A stretch of 64,000 bases of DNA, taken from Sipunculus nudus (taxonomy: Eukaryota > Annelida > Sipuncula > Golfingiida > Sipunculidae). Position 1 is the stretch's first letter; the number at the start of each line of letters is the position of its first letter. Below, piece by piece: positions 3,500 to 45,847 of this stretch. The stretch lies in assembly GCA_026874595.1 (NCBI GenBank), contig CM049320.1, forward strand, positions 31,962,214 through 32,026,213, in the 5' to 3' direction. Position numbers and translations under genes: made by a program. The notes beneath the pieces are model-generated. The model was given only the letters and a program-made list of their open reading frames with translations, was not told the DNA's origin and ran no database searches.

Positions 3500-4368
3500 T
3501 CATGCGTCTTTGTAGTCTTCTTTACGCAGCACAAGTAAAGCATGCATTCCTAAGTTTTCACGAAGCTCCAACACCTCCCGGTTTGCTGTCACGTGCTGTA
3601 GCCGAGGGAAACCATAGAGACGGTGAGCGTTCCATACAATAGAACAAGTGTTTCTTTGTTTGTTCATCGGAAGTCCAAGGAAAAATACTCCTCCTGGTTT
3701 AAGCATGCACCAAACCTGAGCCACCGCTTCCAGATCACCAAACGGATCCAGAGGGTCACCGTATCTGCCTAGCCCACTGTGTTCAATGGAAGAGTAGCTG
3801 GCAGCAAAGTCAAACGGCTCCAGTTGCCCTGACTTAAAGCGTTTGGCAACTTCCATTGGATGATACAAACGCAACTTCGGATGATCCAGATAAAGCGGAT
3901 AATATTCTGACGTAGTCACGTGACTCGCGTTTAGATTGAGCAGCATGCTCTCAAGCCAAGGTGACCTGGTTCCGATAACAAGGCCCCGCCTCTCGCTTAT
4001 ATATTTCTTATATAGATGCAGCGTATTTCGACATAGATGAGAATCAGAGTACGTGTTGATATTTTCTCCGTTTCTGTCTCTGTCCAGCAGGGTATTTATT
4101 TGTTTCCGAGATACAGTTTTCTCGATAGGTTTATAGTTCGGCTTAAAATGAATCCGATACCATGTTGTGTTGGGACATTCCCCATTTTGAGTGAACGCCT
4201 CGTACGTCGCACTCGGAATAAACCTTGGTGGTGGGTATACTACTAGTGACTGAGGGTTCGCCATCCGTGATAAGATATTTGGACAGTTCACCCGTTTTGT
4301 TAAGTACGGGTAATACTTCCCGGGTTTCGCTTTGCCGTCATAGCTGCATATCTCACCACAGGTGATTC
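3500..4368 (-). CDS. DUF268 methyltransferase-like protein, unit 1: last exon
   Basis: An 869-nt terminal exon encoding the catalytic-like part of a DUF268 protein, a family with a SAM-dependent methyltransferase fold and unknown substrate. It starts after acceptor TTCTGTTACAG (minus strand), upstream of the ATG-like positions inside, and runs to tandem stops TGA TAA. Family hallmarks are visible: a glycine-rich loop LVIGTRSPWLES (motif I), HVTTSEYYP with an acidic residue, SSIEHSGLGRYGDP, and MLKPGGVFFLGLP. Phase fits exon 1 (7,331-7,409) and microexon 5,509-5,556: 79+48+869 nt gives 331 residues. The N-terminal exon is a signal anchor, so a lumenal (Golgi or ER) domain is inferred. Motif I reads GTR where unit 2 has GTG. 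About 91% of the last 254 residues match unit 2, with a central stretch of some 70 residues identical. Confidence 0.85.
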
Positions 4369-4961: not shown

Positions 4962-5009
4962 CTGGACTACCAGCTGAAATCCTCTTAAGTAACCCACCTT
5001 CCATCTAAG
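4962..5009 (-). pseudogene. DUF268 microexon cassette 1, unit 1 (stop codon)
   Basis: A 48-nt microexon homologue between TTATTTAG and CAG/GTTAGG on the minus strand, phase 1-1 like its siblings. The second codon is TAG, where unit 2 has AAG, so inclusion would end the protein. Skipping it keeps the frame. The acceptor could also shift by 5 nt (CTTAG), which would break the frame. Probably not used. Confidence 0.55.
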
Positions 5010-5508: not shown

Positions 5509-5556
5509 CTGGACTGATAGCTGGAATCTGCACAGGCAGCTCACCTTTCTTCTTAT
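5509..5556 (-). CDS. DUF268 microexon cassette 2, unit 1 (intact)
   Basis: A 48-nt exon flanked by ATATTTTAG and CCAG/GTTAGTT on the minus strand. In phase 1 it reads DKKKGELPVQIPAISP with the next glycine shared with the last exon. It would form a short basic/proline stem between the membrane anchor and the catalytic part. An internal GTGAGC after 12 nt is a possible second donor that also preserves phase, giving a 12-nt exon. This is the only intact microexon of unit 1. Confidence 0.65.
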
Positions 5557-5852: not shown

Positions 5853-5894
5853 CTAGAATAAGAACTGAACTCGTTTAAAGTAGATAATTTTCAT
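5853..5894 (-). pseudogene. DUF268 microexon cassette 3, unit 1 (decayed)
   Basis: A 42-nt homologue of the microexon between AATTTAG and CTAG/GTTAAA (minus strand). In phase 1 it hits TAA after DENYLL. Unit 2 has the same decay, so it was lost before the units separated. The donor remains GT. Confidence 0.5.
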
Positions 5895-7330: not shown

Positions 7331-7409
7331 CTGTTGTCCAGGTAGAAAACAACATCAAAGCAATCAGCAGGAGCGACATAGATAATGCCACGGCTGTGCG
7401 AAGCGCCAT
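7331..7409 (-). CDS. DUF268 protein, unit 1: exon 1 with signal anchor
   Basis: ATG at 7,409-7,407 opens 26 codons (MALRTAVALSMSLLLIALML then FSTWTT) and ends ACA-G before donor GTAGGG. The hydrophobic run with few flanking charges is a signal peptide or type II signal anchor. Phase 1 at the donor matches the microexons and the last exon. Unit 2 has the same exon at 35,188-35,266. Start choice: first ATG of the hydrophobic frame, conserved in both units. Confidence 0.7.
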
Positions 7410-11599: not shown

Positions 11600-12330
11600 G
11601 TGTGCACCAACATGGGAGTGAGCACAGACATTTGGCGGGCCCGAATTGGCTGTTTTGTGCAGCCAAAATGTAAAGTGAAGTTCGCCGTGAGAACCCTGAG
11701 TTTGACAATGGCGTCTTGACAATGCGCCTCACAACTTTGCTTGCGGTGTTGTTAACACAGGATGGGGACGTTGAGTTGAACTCAGGCCCAAAAGAACCCA
11801 CCACAGCTGCCAAGGATAATCAGGGTCCTATGCTCAGTTATGTGAGGGTCACAAGAAGCTCGAGTGCGGAGAGGGTAGAGAGAGGAGCCTCTAACACTGT
11901 CAACGCAAGGGTGAGTGATAATACAGAACCGAATCTGCATCCCAAGGCCAAGCCATTGGAGCAAAGGAAAGCCAGTGAACCAACTCATAGCTCCCCCGTT
12001 AAAGATACTACAGACTGTGGTGAGTCGTCATTACCTGATATAGTGAAAGAATCAGCTGACAAATAACTACTTTACAGGCAGAGATGAAAGAGATAAAAAG
12101 TGAAAACATATACGTATAAGAAGAAACTCTAAAGATGGTAAAATCAATAATTTTCTTTACAAAATGTGTGCTGCTCATTTAATGAACAAATACTGAACGG
12201 CAGAGTTGCCCCTGATTTAGTAGGGAAGTTTACTTGCATACCTCATACAAAGTGTAGTTGATTATATAAGAGTAAGTAAAGAACTTACTTGTGTTGTACA
12301 GTCATTTGCAGTCTCAACACTGGATATTTC
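11600..12330 (+). mobile_element. CR1-like LINE remnant with 2A-like leader, unit 1
   Basis: Starts with a frame MGVSTDIWRARIGCFVQPKC, shifts, then reads MRLTTLLAVLLTQDGDVELN followed by SGPK and a Ser/Thr-rich ORF1-like segment to 12,066. A jump of about 0.9 kb joins the endonuclease end (SRNSKDGKINNF-like, 12,125-12,290) and a second jump (about 3.2 kb relative to unit 2) joins block C near 12,330. The intact order is at 45,400-50,215. Confidence 0.7.
11761..11793 (+). other. Degenerate 2A-like (ribosome-skipping) motif
   Basis: Codons read DGDVELNSGPK directly after a hydrophobic leader. The 2A consensus is D-V/I-E-x-N-P-G-P; this copy differs only by serine for the first proline. Similar leaders are known at the N-terminus of some invertebrate CR1-type LINEs. 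Activity cannot be assumed with the proline missing. Confidence 0.6.
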
Positions 12331-28343: not shown

Positions 28344-28726
28344 GGAATGCCTGGTACAATTTAAAAAAACTGGATTATGGAGTCCTATAGGATTTATATC
28401 ATGGTTCAGATTTCTTGAATCGTTTATATATGACACAATTGTGTCTATGCTTTTTTTAATTCCGGGTGATTTATCTGTGGATTTAGTTGTTGCGTGCATC
28501 ATATTAAGAATTCCTTGCGTTCTAGAATTATCAATAATTATCATGAATATGCTAATCCTTCTCGCAGTGTTACTTCTCATTGCATCTTCTCAATGAAAAT
28601 TACTTGGATAGACTTAAGTTAATACGATTTGTACAATTTACCTGATTGAAAATAACACAAAACCAATATTTTATCAATCGTAATATATCTTTACTGAAAG
28701 TACGTTAAAAGCATGTATAAGCATAC

Positions 28727-29133
28727 ATGGGGATAGTTCTAATGACATTAACTTCATATAAAAATGTGTATTATAACTGTCCCGTCCCGACAACTTTGCC
28801 CGAAGTACACTGTCTACAAACCATTGTGTACCTTTTTCTTTTTATCAAGTTAATGGATGTTTGCCTGGCACATACTGCAGATGCGATCACAATAGTTCTT
28901 GTCCACTATTACCTGAACCTGCAAGACTGAATGGGACACACGTGGTTTTTGATTTGTTATCAGAACTGCCTTTCATGCACAGTGATCATGAGATATTCAA
29001 AGGAAAAAAAAGAACCGATACCTGGGTCCGTTTTAGCGACAGGACCCTTGCTTTATTCTGGGCGCTTTTTCTTAGTTTGATCATGTTTACAAAATGTCAT
29101 CCTTTATTTAGAATCCAAGAGAATCCACTTTAA
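28727..29133 (+). other. Conserved YCRC-containing ORF, unit 2 first copy
   Basis: Two overlapping frames cover GTYCRCDHNSSCPLLPEPAR and LNGTHVVFDLLSELPFMHSD, then KGKK followed by a length change of an A-run. It is repeated at 30,312-30,668. A preceding signal-like peptide (MNMLILLAVLLLIASSQ, stop) sits about 150 bases upstream. Possible remnant of a secreted protein gene; not proven. Confidence 0.3.
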
Positions 29134-29414
29134 TTATCATTTTTTCCCACAAAATTAACCTTTTAATTATACAAGTATTATATATATATATTTAATACAT
29201 ACATATATATATATATAAACAATAACAGATTTCACATTTGTCATCACAAATTTATACATATGTCCGATCGAAGGGTTTATATATGCACATTACAATGAAG
29301 ACCTATCATTGCACATTAATATCTTCGTACTTTTGGGATCTAAAAAATCATTTTGGACGTGTAAGCTATGACTGGTGCCGAGTTGACGGATTGCCTCTAA
29401 CGGTACTTATTTTA

Positions 29415-29417
<3 letters not shown>

Positions 29418-29468
<51 letters not shown>
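29418..29468. repeat. (TA)n microsatellite
   Basis: TA repeats, duplicated at 31,004-31,058 by the local tandem duplication. Confidence 0.9.
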
Positions 29469-29474
<6 letters not shown>

Positions 29475-29708
29475 CCCTTATGCATGACACATAAGTATAA
29501 TGGGTAATTTACTTTCTGGACGTCAGGAAACCATAATTTATGCTTCAGGGGCAAATATTTTAAAGGAATGTCCGTAATAAATCCGAGGAATATGAAAATT
29601 AAGTAATTTTTAAAGATCGTAATATACATTGAATTTCATCGATTACTCATGATGAATAGTTTGATCATAAGGTCTACCCGAAAATGCTCTTAAAGTTTCC
29701 ATATTTTA

Positions 29709-29923
29709 TTATGCGTCTTTGTAGTCTTCTTTACGCAGCACAAGTAAAGCATGGATTCCTAAGTTTTGATGAAGCTCCCACACCTCCCAGTTTGCTGTCA
29801 CGTGCTGTAGCCGAGGGAAACCATAGAGACGGTTAGCGTTCCATACAATAGAACAAGTGTTGTTTTGTTTGCTCCTCGGAAGTCCAAGGAGAAATACTCC
29901 TCCTGGTTTAAGCATACACCAAA
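29709..29923 (-). pseudogene. Truncated DUF268 C-terminus
   Basis: Encodes only the last 60-70 residues (from MLKPGGVFLLGLP to EDYKDA, tandem stops). The 5' side is cut by the duplication junction, so motif I and the SSIEHSGLGRYGDP core are missing. Changes versus the full copy include PRSKQNN for PMSKQNN and EVWEL for EVLEL. Not functional as a methyltransferase. Confidence 0.85.
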
Positions 29924-29928
29924 TGTGT

Positions 29929-31001
29929 GGAATGCCTGGTACAATTTTAAAAAACTGGATTATGGAGTCCTATAGGATTTATATCATGGTTCAGATTTCT
30001 TGAATCGTTTATATATGACACAATTGTGTCTATGCATTTTTTAATTCCGGGTGATTTATCTGTGGATTTAGTTGTTGCGTGCATCATATTAAGAATTCCT
30101 TGCGTTCTAGAATTATCAATAATTATCATGAATATGCTAATCCTTCTCGCAGTGTTACTTCTCATTGCATCTTCTCAGTGAAAATTACTTGGATAGACTT
30201 AAGTTAATACGATTTGTACAATTTACCTGATTGAAAATAACACAAAACCAATATTTTATCAATCGTAATATATCTTTACTGAAAGTACGTTAAAAGCATG
30301 TACAAACATACATGGGGATAGTTCTAATGACATTAACTTCATATAAAAACGGTATTATAACTGTCCCGTCCCGACAACTTTGCCCGAAGTACACTATGTC
30401 TACAAACCATTGTGTACCTTTTTCTTTTTATCAAGTTAATGGATGTTTGCCTGGCACATACTGCAGATGCGATCACAATAGTTCTTGTCCACTATTACCT
30501 GAACCTGCAAGACTAAATGGGACACACGTGGTTTTTGATTTGTTATCAGAACTACCTTTCATGCACAGTGATCATGAGATATACAAAGGAAAAAAAAAAG
30601 AACCGATACCTGGGTCCGTTTTAGCGACAGGACCCTTGCTTTATTCTGGGCGCTTTTTCTTAGTTTGATCATGTTTACAAAATGTCATCCTTTATTTAGA
30701 ATCCAAGAGAATCCACTTTAATTATCATTTTTTTCCACAAAATTAACCTTTTAATTATACAAGTATTATATATATATTTTTACTACATATATATATATAT
30801 ATATAAACAATAACAGATTTAACATTTGTCATCACAAATTTATACATATGTCCGATCGAAGGGTTTATATATGCACATTACAATGAAGACCTATCATTGC
30901 ACATTAATATCTTCGTACTTTTGGGATCTAAAAATCATTTTGGACGTGTAAGCTATGACTGGTGCCGAGTTGACGGATTGCCTCTAACGGTACTTATTTT
31001 A

Positions 31002-31063
<62 letters not shown>

Positions 31064-31512
31064 CCCTTATGCATAACACATAAGTATAATGGGTAATTTA
31101 CTTTCTGGACGTCAGGAAACCATAATTTATACTTTAGGGGCAAATATTTTAAAGGAATGTCCGTAATAAATCCGAGGAATATGAAAAATAAGTAATTTTT
31201 AAAGATCGTAATATACATTGAATTTCATCGATTACTCATGATGAATAGTTTGATCATAAGGTCTACCCGAAAATGCCCTTAAAGTTTCCATATTTTATTA
31301 TGCGTCTTTGTAGTCTTCTTTACGCAGCACAAGTAAAGCATGGATTCCTAAGTTTTGATGAAGCTCCAACACCTCCCAGTTTGCTGTCACGTGCTGTAGC
31401 CGAGGGAAACCATAGAGACGGTAAGCGTTCCATACAATAGAACAAGTGTTGTTTTGTTTGCTCATCGGAAGTCCAAGGAAAAATACTCCTCCTGGTTTAA
31501 GCATACACCAAA
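29929..31512. repeat. Local 1.59-kb tandem duplication, second copy
   Basis: Second copy of the repeat, which continues into the complete DUF268 last exon. Confidence 0.85.
30312..30668 (+). other. Conserved YCRC-containing ORF, unit 2 second copy
   Basis: A single 118-codon frame joins the parts that lie in two frames in the first copy. It contains VNGCLPGTYCRCDHNSSC. Upstream, TCTTCTCAGTGAAAAT (30,172-30,187) creates a GT donor-like site after the signal-like peptide that the other copies lack. Confidence 0.3.
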
Positions 31513-32166
31513 CCTGTGCCACCGCTTCCAGATCACCAAACGGATCCAGAGGGTCACCGTATCTGCCTAGCCCACTGTGTTCAATGGAAGAGTAGCTGGC
31601 AGCAAAGTCAAACGGCTCCAGTTGCCCTGATTTAAAGCGTTTGGCAACTTCCATTGGATGATACAAACGCAACTTCGGATGATCTAGAAACAGTGGATAA
31701 TATTCTGACGTAGTCACGTGACTCGCGTTCAAGTTGAGCAGCATGGCCTCAAGCCAAGGTGACCCGGTTCCGATAACAAGTCCCCGCCCCTCGCTTATAT
31801 ATCTCTTATATAGATGCAGCGTATTTCGACATAGATGAGAATCAGTGTACGTGTTGATATTTTCCCCGTTTCTGTCTCTGTCCAGCAGGGTATATATTTG
31901 TTTCCGAGATACAGTTTTCTCAATAGGTTTATAGTTCGGCATAAAAAGAACCATATACCGTGTTGTGTTGGAACATTTCCCATTTTGAGTGAACTTCTCG
32001 TACGTCGCACTCGGAATAAATTTTGGTGGTGGGTATACTACTTGTGACTGAGGGTTCGCCATCCGTGATAAAATTTTTTGGCAGTTGACCCGTTTTGTTA
32101 AGTACGGGTAATACTTCCCGGGTCTCGCTTTGCCGTTATAGCTGCATATCTCACCACAGGTGATTC
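31298..32166 (-). CDS. DUF268 methyltransferase-like protein, unit 2: last exon
   Basis: An 869-nt exon after TTTTGTTACAG, ending in tandem stops TAA TAA. With exon 1 (35,188-35,266) and two intact microexons (34,285-34,332; 33,368-33,415) the phases agree and predict 347 residues. Motif I reads LVIGTGSPWLEA with the glycine that unit 1 has lost; HVTTSEYYP, SSIEHSGLGRYGDP and MLKPGGVFFLGLP follow. The start of the exon (ITCGEICSYNGKARPGKYYP) lies upstream of the first ATG seen in it, which shows that the ATG-to-stop ORF is not the whole protein. The substrate is unknown for this family. This is the better candidate for the working copy. Confidence 0.87.
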
Positions 32167-32365
32167 CTGTAACAAAATTAAATGGACGATACAGATGATA
32201 TTATTGTGCCCTATTAAAGAAAAATGGTGATTGTCTGATGTGTTATCAATAAACACTATATGAACCAAGAGTCAATTGCACCGGGCCAGTAATAAACTGG
32301 AGGCCATAATTAATTATGTTTGCAGGCAGAGATCAACATATGCGTAGGGATATTATTATCTTCAT

Positions 32366-32367
<2 letters not shown>

Positions 32368-32404
<37 letters not shown>

Positions 32405-32441
32405 TTATGCGGAATAATGCTACGATAAATCAAATGTTTTG

Positions 32442-32515
<74 letters not shown>
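32368..32515. repeat. (TA)n microsatellites in DUF268 intron, unit 2
   Basis: Two TA tracts separated by about 50 bases; homologous to 4,571-4,720. Confidence 0.9.
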
Positions 32516-32517
<2 letters not shown>

Positions 32518-32796
32518 TGAATAATTGTTGTTCTGTTTTCAACGCTAACTATATGATCCTCCTTATTAAAATATTTTAGAATTGTGTTTATATTAGTCAG
32601 AAACGTATTTATATGGGCAATTATCAACCTTTATATATATTTTTTCAAAACAGTTCCGTTGACTTTATGTGAGTTTATTTGCTGAATATGGGCTTTTCCT
32701 AGCACAGTGTTCCCATATATTCTTACACGAAACAAGATTTTAAAAAATCAGGGAAGCACAACTCAGTGGACATTAAGTTATTGAAGGAAACCTATC

Positions 32797-32844
32797 CTGG
32801 ACTACCAGCTGAAATCTTCTTAAGAAACACACCATCCATCTTAC
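32797..32844 (-). pseudogene. DUF268 microexon cassette 1, unit 2 (broken donor)
   Basis: 48 nt after TTATTTAG, open in phase 1 (GKMDGVFLKKISAGSP), but the donor is CCAG/GATAGG instead of GT. Unit 1 has a good donor but a stop codon, so each copy of this cassette was lost in its own way. Confidence 0.6.
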
Positions 32845-33367
32845 CTAAATAATAACAAAATGCTACTATAAATTATACGCATCAGAATGTAATTACCGAA
32901 TATGACGTAATGATCACCTCCCCGTGAATTCGTGGGTGATTCCTTGGGGAAACGTAAGGATTTAGCCTCCAGCTTAGATCAAACTATAGCGGGTTTTTTA
33001 TATTGAAAGTGGGTATACTTGCTATATAATTATATAATTATATAAGTTATAATTTTTTTCATAACTTTGTACAATCATCATGCTGGCTTGTTGGCCTCCT
33101 TTGATCATGTTGCGAAGTCAAACAAGATTGTGAATACAAGAAGATCGTAAAACAAGACACAAGTGAAACTTAGTTACGGTAGACCTAGGGAGGGACGCTC
33201 GTTTTTTGCATTTGTTTAAAAAAAACAATTTTTATTATGTAAGATACGGTATATAGATTTCTTTATATATATATATATATTTATATATATATTTATATAT
33301 ATGTATATTCTAAAACAAATCCCGATATTTAGAAATCGACAGTTATAAACAATGGAGAACAACTAAC

Positions 33368-33415
33368 CTGGACTGCCAGCTGCACTCTTCATAGGCAGCT
33401 CACCTTTCGTCTGAT
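33368..33415 (-). CDS. DUF268 microexon cassette 2, unit 2 (intact)
   Basis: 48 nt between ATATTTTAG and CCAG/GTTAGTT, phase 1-1, reading DQTKGELPMKSAAGSP. Orthologous to 5,509-5,556. The internal GTGAGC after 12 nt is conserved as a possible alternative donor. Confidence 0.65.
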
Positions 33416-33707
33416 CTAAAATATATACAGAATGCTACTTCAAATTATAAGCATTACATTTTAATAATAAAGATTCTTTGACAAATATATACATTTGCAC
33501 GATTACTTTACGAAAAAAAAATCTTTTATTGGAATGTATTTGTTCATCATTTTACTATACATAAATTAACTTTAATATTGTATTACAGGCATACTTATTG
33601 CTAAATGCCTTTTGCTAATGCCCATATACGTTCTGACACAGAAGACAACATTGATAAACCACAGAAGCGCAACCCAGTGGAAAATTAGTTATTGCAGGAA
33701 ACCTAAC

Positions 33708-33749
33708 CTAGACTAAGAACTGAAATCGTTTAAAGTGGTTGATTTTCAT
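33708..33749 (-). pseudogene. DUF268 microexon cassette 3, unit 2 (decayed)
   Basis: 42 nt with an in-frame TAA after DENQPL, as in unit 1. Splice borders AATTTAG and CTAG/GTTAGG remain. Confidence 0.5.
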
Positions 33750-34284
33750 CTAAATTATTATAGATACATCCTTAAATTATACGAATAATTATTAGAATTA
33801 TTATAAGAATATAGTATTGTACAGAATTCTTGATAAATGAATTTCCCCCGCGATAAATATACGAATATAACAAATATTCTTGTATTTCTGTTTAGTTGCT
33901 TTTCTAAACAATAACTAAACAAGATCATATGTAATAATTTCTAATGGACTTACAAGGATGGTTAGCTTAGAAGGAATAGAAATAGTACGATTTATTTTCT
34001 ATCAATTTTGTCCTATTTTTCAACAGTTACTATATGCCGCTTCCCTAAATTAAATTGAATCAAATAAGTGTTTTCATTCATGAGAAACGTACTTTATATT
34101 ATAATTTGTCAACATTTGAAGGCGGTTTAAAAACACTACGTTGACTTGTTAGTTAATGTAGATTTTTTTTATGAATTAGCCTTTTCATAGCACAATGCAC
34201 ACATATATTCCTGGACGAACACCTACACTCGTAAGCCAACGAAGCACAACTCAGTGGAAAATCAGTTATTGAAGGAAACCTAAC

Positions 34285-34332
34285 CTTGATTGTCAACTGA
34301 AATCTTCTTACGTAGCACACCTTTCTTCTCAT
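34285..34332 (-). CDS. DUF268 microexon cassette 4, unit 2 (intact)
   Basis: 48 nt between TTATTTTAG and CAAG/GTTAGG, phase 1-1, reading DEKKGVLRKKISVDNQ. Same pattern as cassette 2 (D-x-x-K-G-x-L). The exon is deleted in unit 1, so the unit-2 protein has a stem longer by 16 residues. Confidence 0.65.
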
Positions 34333-34673
34333 CTAAAATAAAATGTTAATCGTTTCACCATACATAAATAAGGCCAAATACAATTACTTACAACCGCCTG
34401 ACTGTATGTGGTTAGGTAGTAGGTATATGATACTTTGCCAATTACAATATTTTTAAGATTAATCTTTGCCTTTACTAGAAATATGCTTCATATAGTAAAT
34501 TGCTGATATTGTTTAGGTGTTTCAGCACAGTTTTGTTGTCTTGTAAGTGGTTTGATATAATGAATTTGCCTTTTCCAAGCAAAATGCCAACATATATTCC
34601 TACACGAGTGCCAACATTGATAAACCAGGAAATCCAACTCAATGGATATCAATTATTGTAGGAAGCCTATAAC

Positions 34674-34720
34674 CTGTATGACCAACTGAAATCTTCTAAG
34701 AAGCTTATAATTCATTGGAT
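34674..34720 (-). pseudogene. DUF268 microexon cassette 5, unit 2 (frameshifted)
   Basis: 47 nt between ATATTTTAG and ACAG/GTTATAGG. One base short of its siblings, so inclusion would shift the frame. It reads DPMNYKLLRRFQLVIQ if translated. Deleted in unit 1. Confidence 0.5.
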
Positions 34721-35187
34721 CTAAAATATAAACAAAATGACACTTCAAATTATACGCATAATTGTATATACTTACCAACAACTATACAACTACAAAAGTG
34801 ATAAATAGCCTGCTGGTATTAGAATTTCAAAGTTTTGCATAAAAAGCATTTCTAATTGGTATCAAGTTAGCTTTATACATGCACTAGAATTTTTGTAAAT
34901 ATAAATAAAATAACCATACAGAGGAAAAGATAATTTTATTTATTAAGGGGCCGTTTCACAATGTATATACAACTTTGACTGACTTCGTTACATATCTTTA
35001 TCTTTAGAACAGCTTCATAATCTCTTCTGTCTTGTCTTAAGCCAAGGAAAGGGGGTTTTCATTAAACACGAACATTCTTGAAAATTTGTCAAATTATCAA
35101 ATAAGATTTAACAGTTATCTTCTTTGGTTTGTATCGGCCTATATGCTTCATTCATAATACTAATCCATATTCAAAAATGTGTCCTAC

Positions 35188-35266
35188 CTGTTTTCAAGAT
35201 CGAATACAACATCCAATTAATCAGCAGGAACGACATAAATAATGCCAGGGCTGTGGGAAGCGCCAT
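35188..35266 (-). CDS. DUF268 protein, unit 2: exon 1 with signal anchor
   Basis: 79 nt from ATG (35,266-35,264) to ACA-G/GTAGGAC. It encodes 26 residues starting MALPTALALFMSFLLINWML, a hydrophobic signal anchor. Same length and phase as 7,331-7,409. Changes between copies keep the hydrophobicity, which supports real coding. Confidence 0.7.
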
Positions 35267-37332: not shown

Positions 37333-38387
37333 GTGCAAGACTATATACCTACAACGTTTAACTCCTCAAGACTGCAGCCCATGGTGGAGACTGCTAACAT
37401 GGCGTCTCAGGACCCCGCCTTGGAGCCAGTATCAGTCAGGCCGCTGTTCATACGTGGGACTCAGTTACCACAGACACCTGATAACTATATATCCACTTCT
37501 GAACTTTGCCAAGCAGCCGAAAATTCTGCCGGACATGGCAGCGTGGACGGGGCACAGAGAATACGGGGCCTGTGGAGGCTCTACCTTCTTGTCAATGGTT
37601 TGCAATGGTACGTGGCATTACTGTGTCAATACTTCCAGAGAACCCCTTTACTGCGAGGTATGAGGGCAAAGAACAAGTAAGTGTTACAAAACTTATTGTA
37701 AGTGACATTCCATTGTCATACAGTAATGCGGACATAATGAAAGCCCTTGAAAAACTAGGTTGTAAAGCCCGATCGGAGCTAATGTATGAACGCGATCGGG
37801 ACACCAACGGAAAGCTTACGCGCTGGAAAACAGGCCGACGTTTTGTGTATATTGAAACTACCTCCACGCCAATTGCCAAAACGGTGTCAATTGGTTTATT
37901 CAAAGTTAGTTTATACCATAAAGAACAAAAAGAGGCCGATAAAAGGAAGAATGCAGTCTGTGGAATCTGTTTTGAAAGCGGCCACTACAAAAGCGAATGC
38001 AAAAACAATATAAAATGCCGAGTTTGCCGTGAGGAGGGGCACCGAGTCGGTGACCCGGCCTGCACACTACAAGCACTTGATACAACGGAGCTGACCCAAA
38101 ACAGTACTGTTACGCCCGTGTCTGTACACGCAGAAATGACACAGGAGACAGGGCTGAACAGCCAACAGACGAGGAAACCTGAGCTGGCCGCCCCTCGCGG
38201 TAGGCCTAACAAAGCCCTAGGACGAAACGCAAGCGACTACTCGCGGAGATCGTCAAATGACAGAGTGAAATATGAGACCACCACAACTAACAACAAGCGG
38301 CGAGCATCACAATCTCCGCCCGCCGCCGCTCAAGAACAGAAAAGGTACAGTAATAACAGCGGCCAGAGCGACGATGGTGACACTTGA
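37333..38387 (+). pseudogene. LINE ORF1 (nucleic-acid-binding protein), frameshifted
   Basis: Begins in the frame of 37,333-37,680 (MASQDPALEP, SVDGAQRIRGLWRLY) and moves to the frame ending at 38,387 near 37,600. It contains an RRM-like region (VSDIPLSYSNADIMKALEKL, RWKTGRRFVYIE) and two CCHC knuckles: CGICFESGHYKSEC (CX2CX4HX4C) and CRVCREEGHRVGDPAC (CX2CX4HX6C). The tail is hydrophilic. It would coat LINE RNA. Confidence 0.75.
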
Positions 38388-38477
38388 CACAGTTTTACTG
38401 ACAGTTACCGCTGACTTCTTGGAATCAGATTAGGAACTGGACTTGAACTATGAATAATTAAACTATGATTTTATGAA

Positions 38478-39361
38478 ATGGCGATTCTGAAAGTTCTTAC
38501 GCTAAACTGCAACGGTTTGCGAAATAAAATGGAAAGACAAGGAATATTTAGAAAACTGAAAATGGATAATGTGCATGTCGCATGTTTACAGGAAACCTTC
38601 CTAAACAAGCATTTACTGAAATATGCTGAAAGAGAACTCAATGGTAAATTTTTGCATGTAGAAGGTACGAATAACAGCAAAGGAATTGCTATATATCTAC
38701 ACAAAGCAATCTTAGACGAAATTTTAGATATGGAAACGGTAACTTAACAGGAACGTTTACTAGGGATAAGTTTTACCTAAAAAAAAAATACTTATTGTCT
38801 TTTTAATATATATATGCCCCATGCAATGCCACAGCGAAAATTGAATTTTTAGACAGGGTTAAATCCGTTATCTACAATACAACCACAAAAGGGGAATATG
38901 ATCATGTGATTGTGGTAGGGAACTTCAACACTGTGTTAAGTAACGATCTAGATATTATTTCTGGTAATCCCCATGCTAAACGAGAGGTAGCTGCTTTCAA
39001 TGAATTCATAACTGATATTTCTTTAAAAGATACTTGGCGAAAAAAACATAAACACACTAAAGAATTTTCATGGTCTAGAAACAACCCTTTCGTAGCTTGC
39101 AGATTGGATTATGTTCTAATGGATGATGAGCTTACAAATTGTACTAAATCCGTGGAAATTATTAGATACCCCTTTTCGGATCATAAAGCAGTCCTTGCTG
39201 AAATAGACTTTGACGGGGCACCTCGAGGCCCGTCGTATTGGAAATTCAATAAGTCATTCCTATACGACAAAGAGTATGTCAAAATGATTAACAAATTATT
39301 AGATGAATTCCGGGATAATCCACAATTGTCATGGGATCTGTGTAAAACAGAAATTAAATAA
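38478..39361 (+). pseudogene. LINE ORF2 part 1: APE-type endonuclease, broken
   Basis: MAILKVLTLNCNGLRNKMER opens the endonuclease with LNCNGLR and LQETF motifs. A frameshift and stops at about 38,745-38,905 interrupt it. It resumes with VVGNFNTVLS, where the usual GDFN has Asn for the catalytic Asp, and keeps FSDHKAV. The linker PSYWKFNKSFLYDKEY is typical of Tx1/L1 elements. Confidence 0.75.
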
Positions 39362-39421
39362 ATATCGGTAAAACTTGGTACACATAAAGCCAAAGAAAAA
39401 TACAAAAGAAAATCAAACCTT

Positions 39422-40619
39422 GTGAATAAATTACACGATACTGAGTGTCTTTTGGCTAATAATCCAAGCGATCCTGACCTAATTCGACAGCAAACAAATT
39501 TTCGTAAAGAACTGGTTTTAATGGCTTACTATGAAGCCCGCAGTGCTCAAATCCGCTCCAAAGCTGCGTGGAGAGAGAAGGGTGAGAAAAATACTAAATA
39601 TTTTCTCAGATTAGAAAAATCTCGTGCCTCTAGAAAACTTATTCGAAGTCTTAAGACCACAGATGGCCGTATTATATCCGAGCAAAATGACTTAATAGAG
39701 GAACAGAGCAATTATTTTAGTACTATATATAAAAAAAGGGAGGCTAGCAATCTTACTGAAACATTTGAAAATTTTGTTAAGGATATAGATACGCCTAAAT
39801 TGGATATCACTGATCGTGAGCAATGTGAGGGCAAAATAACCACAGATGAACTAAGCAAAAGTCTTCTTAAAATGAAAAATAACAGTAGTCCGGGACTTGA
39901 CGGTCTCACTACAGAATTTTATAAATTCTTCTGGAGCAAAATAAAACACATTTTACAGAAGGTTTATGATCATGCATTTGTAAAAGGTGAACTATCAGCG
40001 ACTCAGAAACGCGGTATTATTACTCTAATACATAAAGATAAGGACCTTCCGGAGGATGAGCTTACTAACTGGCGCCCTATAACACTAACACATACCGATT
40101 GCAAAATATTAGCGAAATCACTTGCTCTCAGGCTTGAAAGCATTTTTCCAAAAATAATAAACTCAGACCAGGTGGGTTTTATGAAGGGCCGAAGTATTGC
40201 ATCAGCCATCAGAATGATTGACGATATTAACTTATACTTAAATGATGATGATAAACCCGGGGCTCTTGTTGCGGTAGATTTTAGAAAAGCATTTGATACT
40301 CTTTCCAAACAATTTATGATCAAGTCATTTCAACACTTTGGTTTCGGAACGGACTTGTATACAACATAATGGCTGGATCTCAAAAAGTTTAACATTAGAA
40401 AGAGGAGTAAGACAAGGATGTCCCCTCTCTCCACTAACTTTTATAGTTGCAGTGGAAATGTTAGCTAGTAAAATACCGCAAAAAAACCATAAAAGGAATC
40501 GACCTCCCACAAAGGCTATATGCGAGAAACAATATCATAATCCTACAATACGCCGACGACACCACCCTTTTCCTGCAAGACAAGAAGGACATCACAGAGT
40601 CCTTAACTGTACTCAATGA
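39422..40619 (+). pseudogene. LINE ORF2 part 2: reverse transcriptase, broken
   Basis: The frame 39,422-40,369 carries KNNSSPGLDGLTTEFYKFFW, NWRPITLTHTDCKILAK, DQVGFMKGRS and ALVAVDFRKAFDTL. A frameshift near 40,370 leads to GVRQGCPLSP, and another near 40,490 to LQYADDTTLFLQ (catalytic YADD codons at 40,549-40,560). The fingers-palm order is complete. Confidence 0.8.
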
Positions 40620-41925
40620 GTTTGAAAGAATTGCAGGATTACAAATAAATTTATCCAAAACTGAAGCTTTATGGCTGGGTAGAAACAAGAAATTTCAAGA
40701 CATTGTTGCCGGTCTGAAGTGGCTCAGTCACCCAGACAACGAAATAAATACTTGGAGTCAGATTTAGTAACTGCAAATCAGCGTCTAACATCCAATCAAA
40801 TTGGACAAGCAGAATGGAGAAAGCAATAACGGAGATTAAAAAATGGGAGAGACGCAATCTCTCTATCGTGGGCAAAATAGTCATCGTTTAAACATTTGTT
40901 AGGTCGCAGTTTAGATATTTAATGCAGTCATTATCAATGTCTGAAGACGTCGCCATTGAACTTAACCGCATTATTTTCCGGTTCATATGGAAAAAAGTTA
41001 CAAAAATAAAAGAGCTTTCGAAAAAGTGAAAATAAACACTATGACTCTTGATTATGATTATGGAGGTCTAAAAGTCATTGATGTGAAAGTTATGCAGAAA
41101 GCGCTATTAATTAAATGGGTCAAATTGTTTACTGATCAATCAGAGGAAATCTGGACAAATATACCGGAGTACTACTTCAATAAACTTGGTAGAAATAGAA
41201 GCGTTTTACAAGCAAACACCTTACCGAAAAATTTTAAAAATTTACATGTAATTAAAAACGAATTTTACCGTAACGTATTAAAAACGTGGCTTTTAACGCA
41301 AAAACGAGGGCCTGCAGACCCAGCTTTCACCGGTGCCAAGGAACAACACCGCCTTTACATATAGACAACATTCTTTTCTTTAACGACTGGGTACAGGGAG
41401 AGCTTATCTACTTTTCTGATATAGTACAAAATGGTCTTATCATGAGTTTTGAAGACGTGGTCAGAAAACTAGGCAACAGTCCAGCAAGAATGCTGGAGTA
41501 TAATGTAGTACATACGGCAATTAAAAATTGTATACGCAGGAATGGTTCCTCAGTTTTCGAGCCACAAGATATTCAGTTTCGAGGCGTGCCAGTTACAGCG
41601 CTTAATGTGAAATCTATTCGTAATTTAATTAAGCAGGATAAGATCGTGACTCCCTACTCTGAAAAGTTCTGGCTAAATAAATATCCAAGTAGACCCCTAA
41701 CATCAGCGGACTTGTATACAGCAAAAAAATATTGTAAAGAGGTCAGGTTACAACTATTCCACTGGAAAATACTTCATAATATATTTCCCACCAATGTGTT
41801 ACTACATAAAATGGGTATAAAGGACTCTATTAAATGTAGTTTTTGTGACGAAACAGACTACATTTAACACTTTTTCTATTCATGTGGAAAACTTAAACAT
41901 TTTTGGTTTGAAGTAGAAAGCAAAA
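40620..41925 (+). pseudogene. LINE ORF2 part 3: thumb and C-terminal zinc segment
   Basis: Continues with INLSKTEALWLG, stops in the next 300 bases, then YGGLKVIDVKVMQKALLIKW, NDWVQGELIYFSDI, FWLNKYP and LLHKMGIKDSIKCSFC followed by a stop before the last His/Cys residues (HFFYSCGK). Confidence 0.7.
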
Positions 41926-45499: not shown

Positions 45500-45847
45500 T
45501 TGACATTGCGCCTCACAACTTTGCTTGCGGTGTTGTTAACACAGGATGGGGGCGTTGAGCTGAACTCGGGCCCCAAGGAACCCACCACAGCTGCCAAGGA
45601 TAATCAGGGTCCTATGCTCACTTATGTGAGGGTCACAAGAAGCTCGAGTGCGGACAGGGTAGAGAGAGGAGACTTAAACACTGTCAACGCAAGGGTGAGC
45701 GAACATACCGGACCGAATCTGCATCCCAAGGCCAAGCCATTGGAGCAAAGGAAAGCCAGTGAACCAACTCATAGCTCCCCCGTTAAAGATACTACAGACT
45801 GTATCAAGAACAAGGATCATGGAGGGCAATGTTTATGTGTGGGATGA
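45500..45847 (+). pseudogene. CR1-like LINE ORF1-like leader
   Basis: 115 codons: hydrophobic leader, 2A-like motif, then a Ser/Thr/Arg-rich segment (YVRVTRSSSADRVERG; KASEPTHSSPVKDTTD). Almost identical to 11,716-12,000 in unit 1. No zinc finger or other ORF1 domain is visible. Confidence 0.6.
45545..45577 (+). other. Degenerate 2A-like motif, unit 2 LINE
   Basis: Reads DGGVELNSGPK: the same Pro-to-Ser change as the unit-1 copy and an additional Asp-to-Gly in the D-V-E core. It follows the hydrophobic LRLTTLLAVLLTQ. Confidence 0.55.

Follow-up and report, generated by a model that had tools for sequence, protein, structure and literature searches.

The intron in front of the enzyme exon of a DUF268 gene in Sipunculus nudus is occupied by a row of short homologous cassettes. 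We consider it just about probable that these form a birth-and-death array of symmetric exons, whose intact members are spliced in additively, and partly optionally, as spacer units. The gene lies on the minus strand at 31,298-35,266 of the window—the 64,000-nucleotide stretch analyzed here (C15:31,962,214-32,026,213 of the 1.43-Gb genome)—and bears exon 1, five homologous segments (cassettes A to E), and a last exon encoding the DUF268 domain. In the proposed mechanism, the intron that separates a signal-anchor-like exon from the DUF268 exon houses phase 1-1 cassette exons. Each intact cassette would add a spacer unit of ~16 residues, and together these units would make up the stem of a Golgi-type enzyme, a basic and flexible lumenal segment; the substrate of this enzyme may be of glycan type.

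Architecture of the window gene

A first-pass annotation had placed five homologous cassettes, starting at 32,797, 33,368, 33,708, 34,285, and 34,674, between the signal-anchor-like exon and the enzyme exon. All five are present in this arrangement on the minus strand (Table 1): local self-alignment pairs cassettes A to E with each other over 71-349 columns at 67-77% identity (E down to 8e-38), so that homology between cassettes reaching ~350 nt is visible inside the window gene alone. The suggested origin by duplication stands as well, the exon having been copied together with its splice flanks. A cassette profile assigns A to E E-values of 2e-21 to 3e-11, a support that is partly circular since the profile was trained on these and related cassettes; the self-alignment is the independent evidence. 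Across both strands of the window there are eight profile matches at E up to 0.001, all of them inside two DUF268 genes.

The annotation of the individual exons is confirmed in part. The lengths do fall within the 42-48 nt that it gave for phase 1-1 exons, but only B and D are intact—two usable cassettes of five, an intact cassette being one with AG and GT in place, a length of 3n, and no stop. Likewise, the TTTAG acceptor precedes all five exons, but GTTAG follows only three, the others being followed by GTTAT and GATAG, and the D-x-x-K-G-x-L pattern described as common to the cassettes occurs in two of the five. The internal donor 12 nt into the exon is a real GTGAGC in cassette D; of 61 cassettes, 27 have AG|GT at this position, whereas GTGAG or GTAAG is limited to three. 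Confirmed is that an intact cassette adds 16 residues with the frame kept. The frame is in fact kept when exon 1 joins the DUF268 exon via any number of exons of length 3n, including none.

Table 1. Exons and cassettes of the two DUF268 genes in the window (window positions) and cassette counts of the cassette-bearing loci. Intact: AG, GT, length divisible by three, no stop.
Feature	Position	Strand	Remarks
Window gene, exon 1	35188..35266	-	79 nt; contains the start codon and a signal-anchor-like stretch, MALPTALALFMSFLLINWMLYSILKT; phase 1 at its end, donor GTAGGA
Window gene, cassette A	34674..34720	-	47 nt, frame lost
Window gene, cassette B	34285..34332	-	intact, 48 nt, phase 1-1, DEKKGVLRKKISVDNQ
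Window gene, cassette C	33708..33749	-	42 nt, in-frame TAA; pseudo-exon
Window gene, cassette D	33368..33415	-	intact, 48 nt, phase 1-1, DQTKGELPMKSAAGSP; GTGAGC as internal donor after 12 nt
Window gene, cassette E	32797..32844	-	48 nt, open frame; donor GA in place of GT
Window gene, last exon	31298..32166	-	codes for the DUF268 domain with a predicted class I SAM methyltransferase fold; TTACAG at the acceptor; starts in phase matching exon 1
Sister gene (unit 1), exon 1	7331..7409	-	
Sister gene, cassette C	5853..5894	-	in-frame stop; L013 7194-7235
Sister gene, cassette D	5509..5556	-	intact, DKKKGELPVQIPAISP; L013 7532-7579
Sister gene, cassette E	4962..5009	-	in-frame TAG; L013 8079-8126
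Sister gene, DUF268 exon	3500..4368	-	
L009 (window gene)			5 cassettes, 2 intact
L010			5 cassettes, 2 intact; near-identical to L009
L011			3 cassettes, 2 intact
L012			2 cassettes, 1 intact
L013 (sister gene)			3 cassettes, 1 intact
L014			23 cassettes, 15 intact; same chromosome as window, at C15:31514600-31532200
L015			15 cassettes, 11 intact; same chromosome as window, at C15:31490200-31504800
L016			8 cassettes, 4 intact
L017			3 cassettes, 2 intact; repeats end of L016
L018			1 cassette, 1 intact
L021			1 cassette, 1 intact
L022			1 cassette, 1 intact
L023			7 cassettes, 3 intact

The predicted enzyme and its proposed stem

The last exon encodes a DUF268 domain (PF03269): with a threshold of E 10, this Pfam family is matched by all 15 aligned paralogs, the best of them at 6.1e-37, and the window gene scores 116.7 bits against a curated cut-off of 25. 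For the encoded domain, the Rossmann-like fold of class I SAM methyltransferases is predicted; a phmmer search of PDB sequences returned one chance match only (E 0.72). Exon 1, of the MAFRFRIAVALFVTLLLISLMLFS type, appears signal-anchor-like when read by eye from the alignment and probably encodes an N-terminal membrane anchor, a cleaved signal peptide being possible instead.

If every intact cassette is used, the predicted proteins measure 331 (sister gene), 347 (window gene), 486 (L015), and 567 residues (L014), with stems of 16, 32, 176, and 240 residues, respectively, and pI values of 8.5-10.3. Hereby, the stem accounts for at most 240 of 567 predicted residues, and most of the coding length lies in the enzyme exon.

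The sister gene and the surrounding window

The sister gene, at 3.5-7.4 kb, is without A and B, and C and E carry stops, which leaves D as its sole intact cassette. The in-frame TAA of cassette C is common to both window genes. Cassette D differs between them at eight of 48 bases, all eight changes being nonsynonymous.

The window itself is a tandem series of three long segments that have diverged, at 1-28 kb, 28-55 kb, and 55-64 kb; the blocks that they have in common are mostly ~81-97% identical, and a 16-bp minisatellite (TATGGTATCGGTGTAT) recurs at 2705, 28212, and 63534, in corresponding parts of the three. A LINE-containing insertion lies near 37-45 kb. The LINE-like element, on the plus strand at 37506-41867, has one ORF with a reverse transcriptase (RVT_1, E 1.2e-14) and another whose zinc knuckle match stays under the Pfam cut-off. 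A 1.6-kb direct duplication (97.9%) spans 28344-31518; its first copy carries a fragment of a DUF268 C-terminus at ~29.7-29.9 kb, just 3' of the window gene. Two related ORFs, at 11716-12066 (no Pfam match) and 45500-45847, begin with a 2A-type-like stretch, DGDVELNSGP and DGGVELNSGP, respectively, in which S stands where the 2A-type motif has P.

Cassettes across the genome

The last-exon protein has 39 matches in the genome, some of them pieces of one copy, and 21 lie at C15 31.3-32.03 Mb. Twenty match loci were read, 4.4-9.9 kb each, with extra upstream DNA for three. An iterated cassette profile, trained on the same 20 loci that it scanned, finds cassettes in 13 of them, 77 in total, including seven fragments under 42 nt. 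Intact are 46 of the 77, broken the other 31, and a cassette-bearing copy holds between one and 15 intact cassettes (Table 1). Judged by sequence, the window array is a shrunken, decaying version of larger ones elsewhere in the genome. The general idea of the annotation, duplicated exons that lie between the anchor and enzyme exons and add residues in frame, is strengthened by the paralogs with 15 and 23 cassettes. In the window gene, however, the array is decaying, and a tunable use of it is conjectural, since mutually exclusive or mostly skipped cassettes would agree with the DNA as well.

Exon 1 was detected in ten of the 13 cassette loci, and in all ten every cassette sits between exon 1 and the DUF268 exon; across the 20 loci, the profile detects exon 1 in 12, the one of L020 having one extra base near its end. 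The DUF268 exon is damaged in three of the 13 cassette-bearing loci (L018, L022, and L023) and divergent at the C-terminus in L015. Near-duplicate loci are found twice, L009/L010 and L016/L017. In the latter pair, the gene ends are 4,364 bp apart and the last three cassette peptides and the enzyme score are the same, so either a recent tandem copy or an assembly duplication may be at hand. L019, L020, and L024-L028 show no cassette by profile at E up to 0.01 and no convincing one in a scan requiring a cassette-like motif. As L019 and L020 retain a partial exon-1 match, the cassettes look dispensable.

The many similar intronic copies and the repeat-rich region could also point to a dispersed repeat or transposon with a chance likeness to an exon, of which the cassettes would be copies. 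This is highly improbable, and we rejected it for the confinement of the matches: a 341-base cassette-unit query has at least 45 matches in the genome—a lower bound from one cassette type, with 40 of 48 candidates scored and very common words skipped—and all 45 are on C15, either inside DUF268 copies or at most a few kb away from one. Forty-four belong to the DUF268 cluster, and the one outside it adjoins an outlying DUF268 copy at 19.47 Mb. The strand of each match is that of the neighboring DUF268 gene, except for two beside the rearranged copy L022. Around this copy (C15:31862409-31866656), cassette matches occur on both strands, as if an inversion had split the gene.

A query of four cassette peptides and the start of the DUF268 exon yielded 38 rows at E up to 10, and no spliced (processed) genomic copy is among them. 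Twenty-eight rows cover the DUF268 part and start at query residue 62-70, none continuing through the cassettes; the other ten comprise pieces of cassettes and weak, stop-containing rows, two of the ten lying on C1 at 26-28% identity.

Constraint on the cassette sequence

The cassette consensus DQMKGVLPKKISVGSP is symmetric, in phase 1-1. Of the 69 cassettes that reach 42 nt, 12 have a stop in the phase-1 frame, as compared with 36 and 59 in the other two frames. For splice sites, 60 cassettes no shorter than 42 nt were assessed, L010, L017, and L021 being excluded, and for exon sites the 44 of these that are exactly 48 nt long: AG deviates in 4.2% and GT in 3.3% of cases, as opposed to 18.8% per exon site. 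In simulations with a single consensus and a simple mutation model, in which substitutions are placed at random—profile detection itself favoring intact cassettes, a bias that these values still contain—31.7 (sd 2.9) of the 44 are expected to be stop-free and 19.6 to have both splice dinucleotides intact, versus 41 and 37 observed. Drawing one random member from each of 25 groups, which limits the influence of shared ancestry, leaves 20.5 with intact dinucleotides versus 10.9 expected (sd 2.4; none of 1000 simulations reaches 20.5) and 22.5 stop-free versus 17.8 (P 0.036). Hence, the splice dinucleotides are preserved, and the open frame is so more weakly: the splice signals look maintained, and maintenance of the open frame is moderately indicated.

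These values bear on the idea of a relic array, in which former exons are now mostly skipped, exon 1 is joined to the DUF268 exon, and the intact cassettes are those not yet broken. The broken cassettes across the genome, the in-frame junction of exon 1 and last exon, and the undetected amino acid constraint all agree with it. However, compared with the neutral simulations, the splice dinucleotides are kept far more often and the open frame moderately more often, which also holds when each group contributes a single cassette. The largest arrays are still mostly intact, 15 of 23 in L014 and 11 of 15 in L015. We regard a relic as unlikely.

Purifying selection on amino acids was undetected among 35 intact 48-nt cassettes (L010 and L017 excluded), with a pN/pS of 0.79 and column permutations as low in a fraction of 0.395; the most variable codon position is the second. 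In 17 hand-chosen, overlapping cassette pairs, pS is 0.122 and pN 0.115, with a flanking intron difference of 0.184. For L014 versus L015, whose introns are 3.6% diverged, there are too few changes for a dN/dS (3.5 synonymous and 9.5 nonsynonymous in nine intact pairs). Across the cassettes as a set, in-frame and frameshifting indels, ~4 versus 5 events by eye, are uninformative. Of 15 aligned cassette pairs of L014 and L015, nine are intact in both, three in one, and three in neither; hence, cassette decay appears to be continuing. The last exons of the two, at a pS of 0.128, have diverged further than the introns (0.036), which suggests conversion of a DUF268 exon from another copy.

Among 18 hand-picked types, flank identity is 0.76-0.78 in the first 20 nt from the exon; farther out than ~60 nt on the upstream and 40 nt on the downstream side, it is down to 0.62-0.69, about what shuffling gives (0.644). 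Donors often read GTTAGG, not GTAAGT. An intronic stretch like ATGCGTATAATTTAAAGTAGCATTTT is conserved ~15-45 nt upstream of many cassettes, is absent before one DKV-type cassette (L014 6503), and may hold the branch point. Within the exon, a lysine-rich core is apparent, with GAAGA in 37 of 61 cassettes, which may double as a splicing enhancer. Taken as a whole, the cassette sequence behaves like a spacer: splice sites are kept, and residues seem largely free save for the lysine-rich core.

Cassette history

In a tree of 61 cassettes, the cassettes cluster by type across genes; good support is found for 35 of its 58 inner branches. Type A, next to exon 1, is common to L009, L012, L015, L016, L018, and L023, and intact in all of these save L009; type E, next to the last exon, is common to L009, L011, L013, L014, L015, and L022, with intact members in L011, L014, L015, and L022; the type C group has stops in L009, L011, L012, L013, and L016. 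In L016, L023, and L012, other types precede the last exon. Four types are common to L014/L015 and L016/L023, and three (A, B, and E) to the window gene and L014 or L015. Several cassettes thus predate the separation of the genes, unless conversion spread them, and the window genes look like shrunken descendants.

An approximation of the starting point may be offered by L021, a paralog on C11 with an enzyme 70% identical. Its single candidate exon (54 nt, phase 1-1, GHGFIIDILPKKISTTPS) has canonical splice sites ~400 nt before the DUF268 exon and a weak profile score (E 0.002), exon 1 was not found at the locus, and it may picture a single ancestral cassette. By the preferred reading, cassettes would have multiplied in an ancestor of the C15 gene cluster, at least partly ahead of gene duplication, and different sets would have been lost from each copy, giving the present range of intact cassettes in the 13 cassette-bearing copies.

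In a bolder version, a gene would encode its stem in as many as 15 usable, homologous microexons of phase 1-1, so that cells choose stem length and charge combinatorially, while the birth and death of exons lets the tandem gene copies try out different array sizes. We find this version possible but doubtful.

Comparison with known systems

The exons for the PEVK region of titin keep the reading frame and undergo alternative splicing, which tunes length. They are many and short, arose by duplication, encode a low-complexity Pro-Glu-Val-Lys-rich spacer, and went through exon duplication and loss in evolution (PMC6469411). The cassettes resemble them as duplicated short exons coding for a spacer, proposed by analogy to work alike. 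They differ in that gene and motif are unrelated, the cassettes would form a spacer linking an enzyme domain with an anchor-like exon, the array varies between tandem gene copies, and cassette splicing is putative.

Schistosome micro-exon genes (MEGs) are described as multi-copy genes, apparently restricted to platyhelminths, with very small symmetric exons that make up most of the coding region and an N-terminal secretory-pathway segment, their products bearing a signal peptide; VAL-6 is a composite gene with a MEG-like part within a gene of another family (PMC4350168). The DUF268 genes share small symmetric exons (48-nt and phase 1-1 by sequence), multiple copies, and a putative N-terminal secretory-type segment, but repeat one exon type, and a large enzyme exon dominates the coding length. 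Because of this dominance, they are classed neither as titin PEVK type nor as MEG/VAL-6.

The third parallel leads to another reading of the array, in which one cassette is used per transcript and stem sequence rather than length is varied, as in Dscam. Dscam exons are far longer than 48-nt cassettes. Dscam-type arrays consist of homologous, mostly same-length, mutually exclusive exons (PMC6071210), and the cassettes, too, are homologous and mostly of one length. Amino acid changes often separate related cassettes, and under mutual exclusion the genes with one intact cassette (L012, L013, L018, L021, and L022) would roughly match the gene with 15 intact ones in stem length. Unlike in Dscam-type arrays, docking/selector pairing was not found in a limited scan of L015 (11 intact cassettes, ungapped, 10 shuffles each): in the 400 nt following exon 1 or preceding the last exon, no docking site common to the cassette flanks was detected, the one isolated match having a z of 3.6. 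Also against mutual exclusion, L019 and L020 are without a detected cassette, and neither length nor frame forces it. We deem it distinctly unlikely and retain additive, partly optional inclusion as the preferred reading.

The DUF268 literature is sparse, and the open-licence papers examined, as far as their excerpts reach, do not mention a cassette array. For C. elegans, 11 members of the PF03269 family are listed, nine with a signal peptide, at 310-380 aa (PMC7614267, PMC3534327). The two window genes share the domain and come near that size with their predicted 331 and 347 aa, whereas use of every intact cassette would make the products of L014 and L015 longer.

Outlook

For annotation, these genes carry a warning, as a large part of such a gene may reside in 48-nt exons that ORF-based prediction misses. 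If the cassettes are spliced as proposed, S. nudus would provide a natural series of genes with one to 15 intact spacer exons—plus two relatives with none found—ahead of the same enzyme. With such a series, the influence of stem length and charge on an enzyme of the secretory pathway could be studied, as could the growth and decay of exon arrays.
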